A stretch of DNA of 38,379 bases, taken from the IMG/VR virus record IMGVR_UViG_3300028800_000042, positions 1 through 38,379 of that record; one strand, written 5' to 3'. Every line of letters begins with the position of its first letter. The first letter of the stretch is position 1. Made by a program: the position numbers and the translations under genes. Source of the stretch: a virus. A model generated the notes under the pieces. That model did not search any database. It worked only from the letters and a program-made list of their open reading frames with translations, and was not told the DNA's origin. Positions 174 through 8,863 of this stretch are shown one piece after another.

Positions 174-1686
174 TAATCATCTTATTGAAATCGTTAATGA
201 CTTTACTAAATTTGCGCCATCGTGTTTAAAGATTCGATCAAAGGGCGGCTCGCTTGTGCCCTTTGAGCTTAATCGCGCTCAATTGTACGCGCATGAAAAG
301 CTTGAAGAGCAGAAAAAGAAAACGGGGAAGGTGCGTGCCTTAGTTTTAAAAGGCAGGCAGACTGGCCTATCGACATATATCCAGGGCAGATACTTTCATC
401 GCGTCATCACCAGGCGCGGAACGAAAGCTTATATCTTGACGCACGAAGCCGAGGCCACGAAGAATCTTTTTGAAATGACGATGCGCTATTACAATCATTT
501 GCCGAGAGGATTAGCCAGTGAAGCAGATAGGTCAAGCAGTAAAGAGTTGGCTTTCAAGAAATACGATAGTAGCTATTCTGTGGGGACAGCAGGTAATAAG
601 GGCGCAGGTCGCTCTCAAACCATCCAGCTATTTCACGGCTCCGAGGTAGCTTTCTGGCCACACGCTGACGAGCACGACAAAGGCGTATTAAATGCCGTGT
701 CTGACCATGCGGGCACAGAGATCATATTGGAGTCGACAGCCAATGGCATCGGCAATTATTTCTTTAACATGTGGAAGGCCGCGGAGTCTAAACAGTCAGA
801 ATATATTCCGATTTTCATTCCCTGGTTCTGGATGCCTGAATATACTGCAACTGATGAAGACTTCAGCCCAACTGAAGAAGAGCAATTCCTCTTACATTTG
901 TACGAAAAGAATGGCATGACTCTTAGGCATCTTGCCTGGCGTCGCTTGCGCTTGATGAAGTCAAACGATATTGATATCGCCACAGAATCGTTTAAACAAG
1001 AATATCCTTGCTCAGCAACAGAGGCATTCTTAAATCCAATCGCGAATGTCTTTATCAATTCGAAGCATGTCGCGAAGGCACGAAAGAATCGCATAGATAC
1101 GGAAGCAACTAAGTTAATTATTGGCGTCGATGTTGCCCTAGGTGACACAGATAAAACAGCTATCATTAGACGTAAGGGACGCATTGCGTATAATCTTGAG
1201 ACTTTCCGAAACCTAAACACGATGGAGATCGCGGGGTATCTTAAGCATGTCATTGAACAAGAAAAACCTCACAAGGTATATATTGACTCGATTGGCGTTG
1301 GCGCTGGTGTTGTCGATCGTCTACGTGAGCTTAATTTTCATTTTGTCGAGGGCGTTAATGTTGCTAGAACAGCAAACCATCGTGACAAATTTCGAAATCT
1401 GCGAGCAGAGCTTTGGAACGAGATGAAAGAATGGCTGATGCAAGAAATGCTAGTGCAAATCCCAGACGATGATACGCTGCATGGCGACCTATGCAACCTG
1501 GGTTATAAGTATGATTCGAATGGCCGTTTGCAGATAGAGAGCAAAGATGATTTAAAGGCGCGTGGGATGCCTTCTCCTGATACTTCCGACGCCCTGGCAT
1601 TGACATTCTTCTCTGGCTTCTATGAACAAATAGAAGACTTTGCCGTGACAACAGTGCCGAAGCCACGGCCAAACATGTTTATTTAG
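166..1686 (+). CDS. terL: Terminase large subunit
   Basis: This is the packaging motor: an ATPase that pumps DNA through the portal and a nuclease that cuts concatemers. The 506-aa protein has a Walker A-like KGRQTGLST at residues 62-70 and a Walker B-like region ending IILESTANG at 186-194. It also has an RNase H-type nuclease domain with acidic residues in GVDVALGD (D322), VYIDSIGVG (D374) and PDTSDALAL (about 472-475). Length is normal for P22/Sf6-type TerL. The start is a TTG that overlaps the terS stop and is preceded by AGGG about 10 bases upstream; no better ATG is available. It is the last rightward gene before a leftward accessory island, which separates it from its usual neighbour, portal. 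Confidence 0.95.
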   Translation: MSDNHLIEIVNDFTKFAPSCLKIRSKGGSLVPFELNRAQLYAHEKLEEQKKKTGKVRALVLKGRQTGLSTYIQGRYFHRVITRRGTKAYILTHEAEATKNLFEMTMRYYNHLPRGLASEADRSSSKELAFKKYDSSYSVGTAGNKGAGRSQTIQLFHGSEVAFWPHADEHDKGVLNAVSDHAGTEIILESTANGIGNYFFNMWKAAESKQSEYIPIFIPWFWMPEYTATDEDFSPTEEEQFLLHLYEKNGMTLRHLAWRRLRLMKSNDIDIATESFKQEYPCSATEAFLNPIANVFINSKHVAKARKNRIDTEATKLIIGVDVALGDTDKTAIIRRKGRIAYNLETFRNLNTMEIAGYLKHVIEQEKPHKVYIDSIGVGAGVVDRLRELNFHFVEGVNVARTANHRDKFRNLRAELWNEMKEWLMQEMLVQIPDDDTLHGDLCNLGYKYDSNGRLQIESKDDLKARGMPSPDTSDALALTFFSGFYEQIEDFAVTTVPKPRPNMFI

Positions 1687-1690
1687 TCTT

Positions 1691-1713
1691 GATTAAATCG
1701 TGTGTGTTTAATC
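1691..1713. terminator. Hairpin between convergent genes (possible terminator)
   Basis: GATTAAA and TTTAATC form a 7-bp stem around a 9-nt loop just after terL. It lies in the 129-bp gap between convergent terL and the end of the leftward island. The stem is AT-rich and no strong U-run follows, so terminator function is only a guess. Confidence 0.35.
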
Positions 1714-1800
1714 CAATTTGGAATAGACACATTGCGCTAAAAACTTCATAAGTCGACCAAGCGAAACAAGATCCTACAATGGTGCATAGAAATGCTGAGA

Positions 1801-5572: not shown

Positions 5573-5721
5573 CAAACCCTCACGTATCGTTTGCAGCGTG
5601 AACACCAACCTCTGTAATTTGAATCTTCATATCTTGACCATAAATAAATATGTGACATATCTCTAATACTTTCTTTATTAATATCATGACCTTTGAAAAA
5701 ACATATTAGGCGGGGGATCAT
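5572..5721 (-). CDS. Small CxxC protein
   Basis: A 49-aa frame starting MIPRLICFFKGHDI, with a C-x3-G-H N-terminus and a WCSRCKRY near the end. This is the same short C..H..CxxC layout as the gene at 4706-4897. Zinc binding is likely, function unknown. It overlaps the upstream 126-aa gene by 4 bases. Confidence 0.5.
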   Translation of the reverse strand: MIPRLICFFKGHDINKESIRDMSHIYLWSRYEDSNYRGWCSRCKRYVRV

Positions 5722-6098
5722 TCTTCAATCTCGAAAGAAATTGTTTTGATTTTTTTTAAATCATGCGCCCAGCTAGATTCAGAGCATTCTTTTTCATTAT
5801 CAAAAACTTTGCCTATAAAAATAGTTTTAATTTCACTTTCATAAACATTCACCCAATATGTTTTTTTAGTTGAGTCAAGAAAAAGATCAAGTGAACTTTC
5901 TTCCTCATTCCTAAGCGCACTTCCATCAATTCGAAATTGAGAAAAATACGGATCATTTCCAATACTTTCTATTGCGGCATAAATTGGAAATATATATTTA
6001 GTCATTACTTTAAAATAATGAAAGTCTAAAACTTTTCTTCCATCTCGTGTTACTAATGGATGCCCCGCTAATGCTTTCTCTAGATCAAATGGTTTCAT
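5718..6098 (-). CDS. Hypothetical protein, first gene of the leftward island
   Basis: A 126-aa soluble protein starting MKPFDLEKALAGHPLVTRDG. That opening (F-x-L-x-x-A-x-x-G-x-P-L-x-T-R-D-G) is common in small phage and bacterial hypothetical proteins. The rest is mixed alpha/beta without catalytic residues that I recognise. AAGGAT lies upstream of the ATG. A TTTAGTAC motif lies 20 bases upstream of the start and its inverted copy about 28 bp further, so transcription of the whole island probably starts here. Confidence 0.7.
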   Translation of the reverse strand: MKPFDLEKALAGHPLVTRDGRKVLDFHYFKVMTKYIFPIYAAIESIGNDPYFSQFRIDGSALRNEEESSLDLFLDSTKKTYWVNVYESEIKTIFIGKVFDNEKECSESSWAHDLKKIKTISFEIEE

Positions 6099-6117
6099 AT
6101 TTATCCTTATTCAATTT

Positions 6118-6160
6118 GTACTAAATCTATCACAACATAATCTTGTAGTAAGTTTAGTAC
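6118..6160. promoter_or_regulatory. Inverted TTTAGTAC sites (candidate operator)
   Basis: GTACTAAA at 6118-6125 and TTTAGTAC at 6153-6160 form an 8-bp inverted pair in front of the leftward island and at the edge of the repeat region. A third copy, TTTAGTAC at 13021-13028, lies in the leader region of the coat gene. I infer a phage regulatory site; no binding protein is known. Confidence 0.4.
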
Positions 6161-6493
6161 ATAAACTGGCTGGGATGAGGCCGAGAGTTATACCGACCAT
6201 CGGCATTTCATCGTACGCTTACTTTGCCAACTACTAGGGTCATTACCCCTTCTCACCCCATAAACTGGCGGCCTATTTTCCCATCTAGTGCGTATTCTTC
6301 GTGTGGACTTCCACCATGCCTAGAAGTATCGTCGGCCATAAACTGGCGGCCTTATTTTCTCTACCATATATCGCAAGCAATATATGCTCTCTGAGATTCG
6401 ATATCGTCAGGCCATAAATAATAGGCAGCAAATACGGTTCTGAAGGGACTTTAAACCCTTGTTAGCGTTCCCCTAACAGGTTCATTTGCTGCC
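6161..6493 (+). ncRNA. Degenerate repeat array with hairpins (candidate structured RNA)
   Basis: No protein frame is credible here. ATAAACTGGC recurs at 6161, 6260 (followed by GGCCTATTTTC) and 6338 (followed by GGCCTTATTTTC). A related ATAAATAATAGGC starts at 6415. Spacings are 99, 78 and 77 bases. Copies 2 and 3 can fold as CCA-TAAAC-TGG mini-hairpins. Each unit also carries its own hairpin: GCCGA/TCGGC with GATGA/TCATC in unit 1, GTGG-ACTT-CCAC in unit 2 and CATATAT/ATATATG in unit 3. The strand is assumed. It could instead be DNA-level protein-binding sites. Confidence 0.45.
6424..6493 (+). ncRNA. 70-nt three-way-junction-like element
   Basis: GGCAGCAAAT (6424-6433) pairs perfectly with ATTTGCTGCC (6484-6493). 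Inside are two abutting hairpins: AAGGG/CCCTT with an 8-nt loop (6443-6460) and GTTAG/CTAAC with a 7-nt loop (6461-6477). The fold is equally possible on the other strand. It does not fit a tRNA: there is no D-arm and no T-loop in the right place. Function unknown. Confidence 0.5.
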
Positions 6494-6603
6494 GGACGTA
6501 ATAATAATATATTTAAATGATTTTTGTTATAACTATGTAAGGTTTTTTTATGTATAAGTAACTTATTTGGTTGAAAGTCATAGATTTAGAGAAAGTACAA
6601 ACT
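6494..6603. other. AT-rich stretch (possible unwinding region)
   Basis: About 110 bases dominated by A and T, including ATAATAATAATATATTTAAA-like sequence. No gene is seen. It lies next to the phased repeats and DnaA boxes and could be the duplex-unwinding part of an origin. Confidence 0.4.
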
Positions 6604-6709
6604 GTGGACAAACTGAGGACAACCAGAGGACAAATTTAGGACAGAAAAGTTATCCACATGCTTTCAATGTCCTATTCACAATCTTATTAACGTTTTTTGT
6701 GGATAACTT
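6604..6709. other. Candidate replication origin: 11-bp iterons plus DnaA boxes
   Basis: Four GGACA-containing units of exactly 11 bp follow each other at 6604, 6615, 6626 and 6637 (GTGGACAAACT, GAGGACAACCA, GAGGACAAATT, TAGGACAGAAA). They are followed by a perfect DnaA box TTATCCACA at 6650-6658 and a near box CTATTCACA at 6672-6680. An inverted perfect box TGTGGATAA lies at 6698-6706. The outer boxes are part of a 12-bp inverted repeat, AAGTTATCCACA/TGTGGATAACTT. Phased iterons with DnaA boxes and a flanking AT-rich tract are typical of theta origins. No initiator gene lies beside it, so a regulatory role for portal transcription remains possible. Confidence 0.55.
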
Positions 6710-6740
6710 AAGTGTTAAGATAGATTAAATTATTGTCATA

Positions 6741-6754
6741 CATGGATGTATGCT
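6741..6754 (+). promoter_or_regulatory. CATGGATG leader motif before portal
   Basis: ACATGGATGT at 6740-6749 lies just before the preferred portal ATG (6755). The same ten bases precede the tail-fibre gene (24447-24456), and CATGGATG precedes the VRR-NUC gene (35333-35340). Each of these genes begins after an intergenic gap. GGAT may serve as a weak ribosome-binding site. Confidence 0.35.
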
Positions 6755-8863
6755 ATGCCGAAGCTGGACTTAAATGTCACAAGGAAGATCCGCGAGCGAA
6801 TAAAAAAGTGGGATGATGACTGGCGGTTCAATAAAGACCAGTACCATGAATTTACTAGCTTTGTTATGGGCAGCCAATGGACTGAAGACGAGTCTAAGCT
6901 TTTTATTGATTACAAGAAAATACCCCTTTCGATGAACAAACTAGCGCCTTTGATGAACCATCTTATTGGTGAGCAAAGAATGCGCACTACCAATCTGCAA
7001 GTCTGCCCCAGTGATAACGTCCCCGCAATGACCGCGCAAGTCCGCGAAGCCTTGGTTAAAGAGATTTGCCTGAATAGCGACTCTAAGCGCGTGGGCAGCC
7101 GTGCCTTTGCTCAGGCTGGCATTGGCGGCTTTGGTGCCTTTTTCTTAGATACGGAATATGAAAATGACCGCTCGTTTAACCAAGTGATTGTTTTTAGGGA
7201 AACGAAAGACCCGACGTACTGCTACTGGGACGTATCAGCCATGACGCCATGCAAGACAGATGGCATGTACTGTGGCGAGCGCATTAGGATGTCCAGAAAG
7301 ATGTTCGCGGGCATCTATGGTGATGAAATTGAAAAGTCTATCGGTTCCGATGCAAATTACGATGAAGGCTCTGCGACGGGTTGGATTTTCTCTAACGACA
7401 AAGAAATCACGCTGATTAAAGATTATGAGCGCGTTTACGATACTGAAACACTGTATCAATTATCCTCTGGCCGGATTGTCACGGAGAAGCAGAAAAAAGA
7501 ATTAGAAACAATCGAGATAGATGGGAAAAAATATCTCATTGATGACGGCTATATAGTCACGGTTGAAAATGAGCGTGATGTTCCGAAGTATAAAATCATA
7601 CACAGGAAAATAGCTGGCGATTACGTCCTGGAAGAAGTCGAGTTCCCATCTGAGCAACTGCCAGGGATTTTCGTTGATCAAGATTCCTACTATGACAAAT
7701 CAGGAAAGCAAATATGTCGACCGTTTATAAAAGACGCAAGAGATGCCCAGCGATATATCAATTACCTAGCTACACAGTCAGCTTACTTAATGCGAGTGTC
7801 GAGATACGATCAATTCCTTGTAAGCAAGGCGAACGTAAAATCGCCAGATACGCAGCTCATTTGGCGCGATCCTGCTACAGCGCAAGGCGGCCTTGTATAT
7901 GACGAATCACCCAATGGCAATAAGCCAGAGCAATTGCGACCTCCAGAGTTGTCACAGTCTTTAATAACGCAGTATCAGCGAGCATTATCCGACATCGAAA
8001 GTTGTACAGGCATGTATGGTACACAGATCGGCGATCAAGGTAACGAAAATTCGGGTAAGGCGATTGACGCTCGCGTGAAACGTGGGAACAAAAACACTTA
8101 CATTCCATTTGATAGTATTGATCGCGCGTTTGCCTGTGCGGGTACGGTCATAGATGAAATGATTCCGCGGGTTTACGATGCGGAAAGGGAAATTAGCATA
8201 AATATGCCTGATCGCGGCAATACTTCTATTGTGATTAACAAGCAAGTCGACGCTTACGGTTCTAATATCGAAAATGATATGACGCAAGGGCATTACACTA
8301 TTCGATTAATGCCAGGGCCATCCTTTGAAGGGCAAAAAGAAGAGAATTTGGAATCAATTCAGACTGTTCTGCAAGCTGATCCAAGTTTATTCCGTATGGT
8401 GGCTGATCTTTACGTAGAAAACTTGCCGTTGGCTAACAATATAGAATTGCGAAATCGTTTAAGAACCTTAGTGCCGCCAGAAATTATTCAAGCTGGAAAG
8501 ACTGGCGAGCCAATTCCACCGAAACCGCAAGAACCGCCGCCAGAATTAATGTTAAAGATGCAGGAATTGCAGTTTAAACAGATGCAAGCGCAGCAAATGG
8601 CTCAAATAAAGATGAAAGAAATTGAACTGAAGGAGCAGCAATTGCAAATTCAAGCAATGAAAACAGGTGAAGATATCTCTATTGCCAGACAAAAACTGGA
8701 AACAGAGAAAATGCTCGCCGCAGCTGAATTGCAAGAGCAGGAATTGCGTTACGAAGGTGAAATGCAAAGATTATCAGCTGATATGCAAATATCTCATGCT
8801 GATAATTTGATTAAACTTTTAACCCATCAATCTAAACCAAAGCATAAGGAAAGTGCAGCATGA
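6755..8863 (+). CDS. Portal protein (P22 gp1-like)
   Basis: This 702-aa protein forms the dodecameric ring through which DNA enters and leaves the capsid. It resembles P22-type portals (725 aa) in length and layout. An N-terminal wing/clip region includes GEQRMRTTNLQV and the SGKAIDARVKRG stretch. A long glutamine- and glutamate-rich C-terminal helix begins near residue 600 and corresponds to the barrel of P22 gp1. I prefer the ATG at 6755 over that at 6746, because the latter begins inside the GGATG leader shared with the fibre gene. The stop overlaps the scaffold start. Unlike in P22, it is separated from terL by a 5-kb insertion. Confidence 0.93.
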   Translation: MPKLDLNVTRKIRERIKKWDDDWRFNKDQYHEFTSFVMGSQWTEDESKLFIDYKKIPLSMNKLAPLMNHLIGEQRMRTTNLQVCPSDNVPAMTAQVREALVKEICLNSDSKRVGSRAFAQAGIGGFGAFFLDTEYENDRSFNQVIVFRETKDPTYCYWDVSAMTPCKTDGMYCGERIRMSRKMFAGIYGDEIEKSIGSDANYDEGSATGWIFSNDKEITLIKDYERVYDTETLYQLSSGRIVTEKQKKELETIEIDGKKYLIDDGYIVTVENERDVPKYKIIHRKIAGDYVLEEVEFPSEQLPGIFVDQDSYYDKSGKQICRPFIKDARDAQRYINYLATQSAYLMRVSRYDQFLVSKANVKSPDTQLIWRDPATAQGGLVYDESPNGNKPEQLRPPELSQSLITQYQRALSDIESCTGMYGTQIGDQGNENSGKAIDARVKRGNKNTYIPFDSIDRAFACAGTVIDEMIPRVYDAEREISINMPDRGNTSIVINKQVDAYGSNIENDMTQGHYTIRLMPGPSFEGQKEENLESIQTVLQADPSLFRMVADLYVENLPLANNIELRNRLRTLVPPEIIQAGKTGEPIPPKPQEPPPELMLKMQELQFKQMQAQQMAQIKMKEIELKEQQLQIQAMKTGEDISIARQKLETEKMLAAAELQEQELRYEGEMQRLSADMQISHADNLIKLLTHQSKPKHKESAA

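Follow-up and report, generated by a model that had tools for sequence, protein, structure and literature searches.

Phage tRNA arrays, such as the tRNA-rich region of T5, carry small RNAs in tandem, some of them with an encoded CCA. GOLLD and ROOL, structured phage RNAs of unknown function, are often found near such tRNA islands (PMC12286853), and are single large RNAs that form cages. In tmRNA and the tRNA-like structures of viruses, an acceptor, T-arm and D-arm are retained while another domain replaces the anticodon arm. Unusual acceptor branches are a feature of tRNA-Sec and the allo-tRNAs, that of bacterial tRNA-Sec having 8+5 bp. Known non-canonical tRNAs have been reviewed (PMC7609411), the word “phage” being absent from the main text of that review.

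The window analysed here is a viral record of 38,379 bases from an uncultured bacteriophage with a P22-like portal protein (phrog_156). A 330-base stretch, with a leftward small-gene cassette on one side and the rightward portal gene on the other, is very probably a row of four small RNA genes, arranged in tandem on the minus strand. The units, U4, U3, U2 and U1, lie head to tail and are mostly separated by GTTTAT (Table 1). Two of them, U2 and U3, belong to a family termed R1, which is found in dozens of viral contigs; a second family, R2, is the array neighbour of R1 in relatives. In common with phage tRNA arrays, these are tandem small RNAs, and real tRNAs are also present in some R1/R2 arrays; in contrast, most units here have no anticodon arm, have hypervariable cores, and are missed by ARAGORN and the Rfam tRNA model. 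They also differ from GOLLD and ROOL in being tandem units of 50–200 nt. R2 resembles tmRNA and viral tRNA-like structures in its acceptor, T-arm, D-arm and replaced anticodon arm, but is 100–200 nt long with freely varying acceptor sequences; it shares the 8+5 bp acceptor branch with tRNA-Sec, but not the anticodon arm.

Table 1. Coordinates of the units, spacers and flanking features of the array.
Feature	Positions	Strand	Remarks
Unit U4, first in predicted transcription order, 70 nt	6424..6493	-	Folds better than any other single unit (z = -3.4); L132 has an element in the same place, by eye
U4 terminal stem, 10-11 bp, GGCAGCAAAT.../...ATTTGCTGCC	within 6424..6493	-	
Unit U3, 70 nt, family R1, GCCA end	6344..6413	-	R1 model match
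U3 structure: GGCCT/AGGCC P1, ACGATA/GAAAATA loop, 9-bp hairpin CATATATTGC-TT-GCGATATATG	within 6344..6413	-	
Unit U2, 72 nt, family R1, GGCC/GGCC P1, P2 stem, GCCA end	6266..6337	-	
U2 internal loop, 5' half, GACGATA	6327..6333	-	ACGATA in search pattern; kept in nearly all model-found members
U2 internal loop, 3' half, GAAAATA	6274..6280	-	In search pattern; survives in almost every member found later
Unit U1, 94 nt, cloverleaf-like, GCCA end	6167..6260	-	Homologue on L220, 90% identical
U1 parts: acceptor of 8-9 bp, arm resembling a D-arm, long middle arm, hairpin resembling a T-arm	within 6167..6260	-	
Spacer U4/U3, TATTATTTAT	6414..6423	-	
Spacer U3/U2, GTTTAT	6338..6343	-	5-7 nt spacer of same kind in other arrays
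Spacer U2/U1, GTTTAT	6260..6265	-	Last T can pair with base before final GCCA of U1
Promoter-like site, ATAACA - 18 - TATTAT	6501..6530	-	About 7 nt before U4; consensus match only
AT-rich inverted repeat, TGTACTAAA...TTTAGTACA	6117..6161	-	Directly 3' of U1

The first-pass annotation had read this region on the plus strand as a repeat array, in which exact copies of ATAAACTGGC lie at 6161, 6260 and 6338 and a diverged fourth copy (ATAAAT) at 6414. The repeats are real, and the spacings of 99 and 78 are as claimed, the last being 76 rather than 77. The strand has to be reversed, since it is set by the arrays of relatives: the portal relatives L132–L134 (73–74% identical) carry a matching minus-strand array upstream of the portal gene. 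Apart from a 22-nt pair (6258–6279 and 6336–6357, 91% identical and 78 apart), no family of direct repeats is found in 5900–6800. The plus-strand repeat is the reverse complement of the minus-strand unit junction (...GGCC-GCCA, GTTTAT, GGCC...), and the mini-hairpin with a TAAAC loop described earlier, GCCA-TAAAC-TGGC, is best seen as a side effect of this junction, at which two acceptor stems come together (GGCC-GCCA-GTTTAT-GGCC on the minus strand). The units are tRNA-like rather than plain hairpins, each having a tRNA-acceptor-like terminal stem. No open reading frame crosses the region, with 4–8 stops per frame in all six frames.

The long-stem element noted at the end of the region is real and corresponds to U4. 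Single units other than U4 fold with z of about -1.8 relative to shuffled sequences, a modest gain, and the structure is thus established by covariation and not by folding energy. U4 does not encode CCA, its 3' end being followed by TATT; its counterpart in L132 (GGCGCTTATGAAC...TAAGCGCC, then ATGATTTATGG) occupies the same place by eye. U4 has neither R1 nor R2 features. The R1 covariance model matches U3 at 6344–6416 (47.9 bits, E 3e-9) and U2 at 6266–6340 (57.9 bits, E 8e-12). In U3, P1 is one T-A pair longer, with a base added to each strand of the stem, and the hairpin has a homologue in L072 with a changed stem. The homologue of U1 also lies in an array, and all 23 pairs of the proposed cloverleaf-like fold are kept between the two sequences, two of them by double changes; with n=2, this comparison is suggestive of such a fold. 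The hairpin at the place of the T-arm has a 10-nt loop. A match to the U1 core pattern in L313, which sits in apparently coding sequence, was dismissed as chance.

R1 consists of a UGGSC P1 stem, a conserved ACGAUA/GAAAAUA internal loop, a P2 stem and a variable core. The seed pattern, ACGATA-N30-60-GAAAATAGSCCNCCA, matched 30 contigs, nearly all of which have in common the longer frame TATGGSYGACGATACT...GGGAAAATAGSCCRCCA. Across 25 aligned sequences, 89.6% of cells are paired against 76.4% when shuffled, with 34 double changes against 14.4 (0/500 shuffles). The 5' GGSC lies outside the search pattern, yet pairs with GSCC in 25/25 sequences, including five G-C for C-G swaps, and the P2 stem varies freely with compensation. 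Among 44 members there are 71 double changes (0/500 shuffles), in an alignment that was fitted to the covariance model and so leans towards the structure; sliding the pairing partner destroys the signal. As the pattern required both ACGATA and GAAAATA, their invariance in the alignment derived from it is partly selection, but both are kept, with few exceptions, in members found later by the model. These include loci fetched by the unrelated R2 T-arm pattern (L299, L295, L249, L278, L282, L255, L250, L268 and L273). The suggestion of a modular phage non-coding RNA under selection for structure is therefore supported by strong covariation in relatives, one half of the check that had been proposed, with covariation present in homologues and not absent.

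The highly conserved, purine-rich internal loop between covarying stems could be taken to indicate that R1 is a catalytic, ligand-binding or protein-binding RNA, with ACGAUA/GAAAAUA as its active site and the tRNA-like end incidental. This is improbable, as neither the CCA-type end nor the linkage in tandem with R2 and tRNA units would then be explained, and no Rfam ribozyme matches. In a search made without CCA, NCCA directly follows the stem in 10/23 distinct R1 elements, where about 1 in 64 would be expected; more than half do not encode the full CCA. Most members, U2 and U3 among them, have no T-arm, and R1 is thus tRNA-like only at its end.

A DNA-level role was also among the earlier suggestions, as packaging or partition sites, to which origin or recombination sites may be added. 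An inverted pair of DnaA boxes 150–200 bp away is in keeping with it, but the signal is of RNA type, with G-U pairs and compensatory swaps in the covariation; units keep one orientation within arrays, and the arrays differ in genome position. Packaging or partition is thus unsupported, and DNA-level sites of any of these kinds are the least probable of the readings considered.

The elements of R2 are an acceptor of 8 bp, a D-arm of sequence GGCGTGGACAGTGACACGC, a variable domain and a T-arm whose loop reads TGCAATT. A search of the window for R2 gave no match at E ≤ 0.1. All cells of the R2 acceptor (100%) are paired, with double changes in seven of its eight pairs (0/500 shuffles). A search by the D-arm only returned 70 distinct elements, 42 of which have an 8-bp acceptor partner and an adjacent 5+7 T-arm, compared with 2.1% in a swapped-acceptor control; in these, the T-stems vary with compensation and the loop is constant in 36/42. 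Other kinds of unit also occur, with fully paired 7-bp ends and NCCA; GGCTCTC...GAGAGCC and GCCCGAT...ATCGGGC are examples.

The acceptor, D-arm and T-arm of R2, and its tRNA-Sec-like acceptor branch, raise the question of whether these are functional but structurally aberrant decoding tRNAs, similar to mitochondrial or allo-tRNAs. In the window, ARAGORN and the Rfam tRNA model (RF00005) report no tRNA, and an acceptor followed by N-CCA is found at U1–U3. Anticodon-like 5-bp arms occur in 0/44 R1 cores and 0/21 R2 cores, and 4-bp arms are about as frequent as expected by chance; moreover, position 55 of the R2 T-loop is G, and the acceptors have no fixed identity elements. Decoding is therefore a very improbable role. 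The variable cores are weakly folded, R1 cores being barely better than dinucleotide shuffles (mean z -0.21) and R2 cores having z -0.5. Conserved ends with strongly variable cores of this kind would suit scaffolded antisense regulators, in which tRNA-like ends serve processing and stability, while the hypervariable core targets messages of the host or the phage by base pairing. This is an unlikely explanation, as the longest antisense matches of the window units in their own genome are 10–12 nt, no better than for shuffled sequences.

Arrays of this type are present in other genomes. Other minus-strand tRNA-like units lie upstream of the portal gene in L121/L135 and L128/L140, the L128 gene scoring 42.7 bits against the tRNA family, and searching 0.94 Mb with a descriptor of an acceptor plus canonical T-arm gave 10 places, against none after base-by-base shuffling. 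The array cannot be essential for this lineage, since R1 units are missing from the closest relative, L131/L120 (82% portal identity). Where R1 and R2 units abut, most spacers are 5–7 nt long, and the spacer is often GTTTAT. R1 was found in 38/40 array records, its presence having been the reason for choosing most of them; portal relatives account for 16/36 array records, and canonical tRNAs above cut-off occur in 9/40, directly adjoining R1 units in L217 and L239. A tRNA-Phe-like gene at L140:5253-5323 (minus strand) is 85% identical to the intact tRNA-Phe of L239, with an anticodon arm 5 nt shorter, a change that could be one way in which a tRNA turns into a tRNA-like unit. This shortening, together with the real tRNAs in the same arrays, could alternatively be read as decay, the units being remnants of tRNA arrays heading for loss. 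However, pseudogenes would lose acceptor pairing early, whereas strong compensatory changes are seen here, and highly conserved loop motifs are common to dozens of contigs, which makes decay quite improbable.

We favour a tandem minus-strand array of four non-decoding tRNA-like small RNAs that would be processed by the host and act as mimics or decoys, an explanation which, taken whole, we regard as evenly balanced. Transcription would start just ahead of U4, at a promoter predicted by its sequence, and proceed leftward into the small-gene cassette; promoter-like sites number three in 5600–6800, fewer than in shuffled sequences. RNase P substrates are marked by a leader U, G1-C72, a purine at 73 and CCA, and these determinants (U-1, G1-C72, R73, CCA) are present in the sequence. 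By these known substrate rules, tRNA-type processing is reasonably likely: host tRNA-maturation enzymes would cut the units from a common transcript, RNase P acting at the G after the TTTAT leader, and exonucleases together with RNase E/Z at the GTTTAT spacer, giving ends that are RCCA or are completed by the CCA-adding enzyme. The mature RNAs would keep the features recognised by tRNA-handling proteins, namely the acceptor stem and purine-CCA end, and, in sister units, the D-arm and T-arm.

Phage tRNAs can counter tRNA-cutting defences, although in the published case rescue was abolished by changing the anticodon (PMC11555353). Given that such countering exists, and given the conserved acceptor/elbow side and the lost anticodon side, a mimic or decoy function may be proposed, if only tentatively. 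Without an anticodon arm, the mature RNAs would act in trans, most plausibly by occupying enzymes of the host or toxins of its defences whose action is directed at the tRNA acceptor or CCA side. A sponge-like role for the array RNAs, as suggested in the first-pass annotation, is possible. More speculatively still, the arrays might represent an undescribed class of phage counter-defence RNA, in which quickly diversifying decoys with tRNA ends (R1, R2 and others) would sequester host toxins or enzymes acting on the acceptor and elbow of tRNA, with the R1 loop motif being new. R1 and R2 would add a new component to phage genomes, tRNA-ended RNAs that apparently do not decode, and provide a concrete handle on an open question, the role of non-tRNA RNAs in phage tRNA islands; if they are decoys, counter-defence would operate by tRNA mimicry and not by tRNA replacement.

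Neither family matches any of the 4227 families of Rfam 15 above the gathering threshold, including GOLLD and ROOL, whose covariance models give no match, nor any of 50,697 GenBank phage records (INPHARED); ARAGORN found no tmRNA in the loci scanned. Sub-threshold Rfam matches to the region (E up to 10) are implausible, and BLASTN of the region against INPHARED gave only weak matches to flanking genes or short chance pieces. Likewise, the L237 and L220 arrays and the L256 and L339 R2 elements retrieved only tRNA T-arm fragments or chance matches from INPHARED. The exact 14-mer ATAAACTGGCGGCC has at least 119 matches in IMG/VR, not above estimated chance, and was not used. R1 was not found in 36 genomes from the order to which a Coxiella bin belongs, and among 398 genomes of its phylum a single 37-nt match to R2 is too short to be real. 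No comparable description was found in the open literature, with most subscription papers outside its scope, so that an earlier description is possible. R1 meets no known family's definition; R2, taken by itself, could pass for an extreme variant of tRNA.

Several further elements lie in or near the arrays. Units that belong to neither R1 nor R2, but have fully matched 7-bp terminal stems and end in NCCA, occur in L219, L236, L242, L072, L225 and L244, and a recurrent hairpin with the 7-nt loop TGAAAGY, resembling a T-loop, lies inside or beside units in L217, L231, L236, L242 and L233. Two related elements of about 140 nt, in L078 and L219, contain CTGATGAG...CGAAA or a closely similar string and are no more than about 350 nt from the R1 units; they look hammerhead-like to the eye, but Rfam does not report them at the gathering threshold. 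In L227, a long GGTTCCGGTTACGG-type simple repeat (about 1560–1790, plus strand) lies directly upstream of an R1 unit. In the window, the AT-rich inverted repeat beside U1 is possibly a further element. Among ten proteins of the leftward cassette, Pfam identified no tRNA-processing enzyme and no toxin, only a Dam methylase being above cut-off. Finally, window positions 6598–6710 contain an inverted pair of perfect DnaA boxes, TTATCCACA, at 6650 on the plus strand and 6706 on the minus strand. Four direct repeats of GGACA type, spaced by about 11 bp, come before them; together these look like a putative replication origin, and a DnaA-box-like sequence is found at the corresponding place in L120 and L132.
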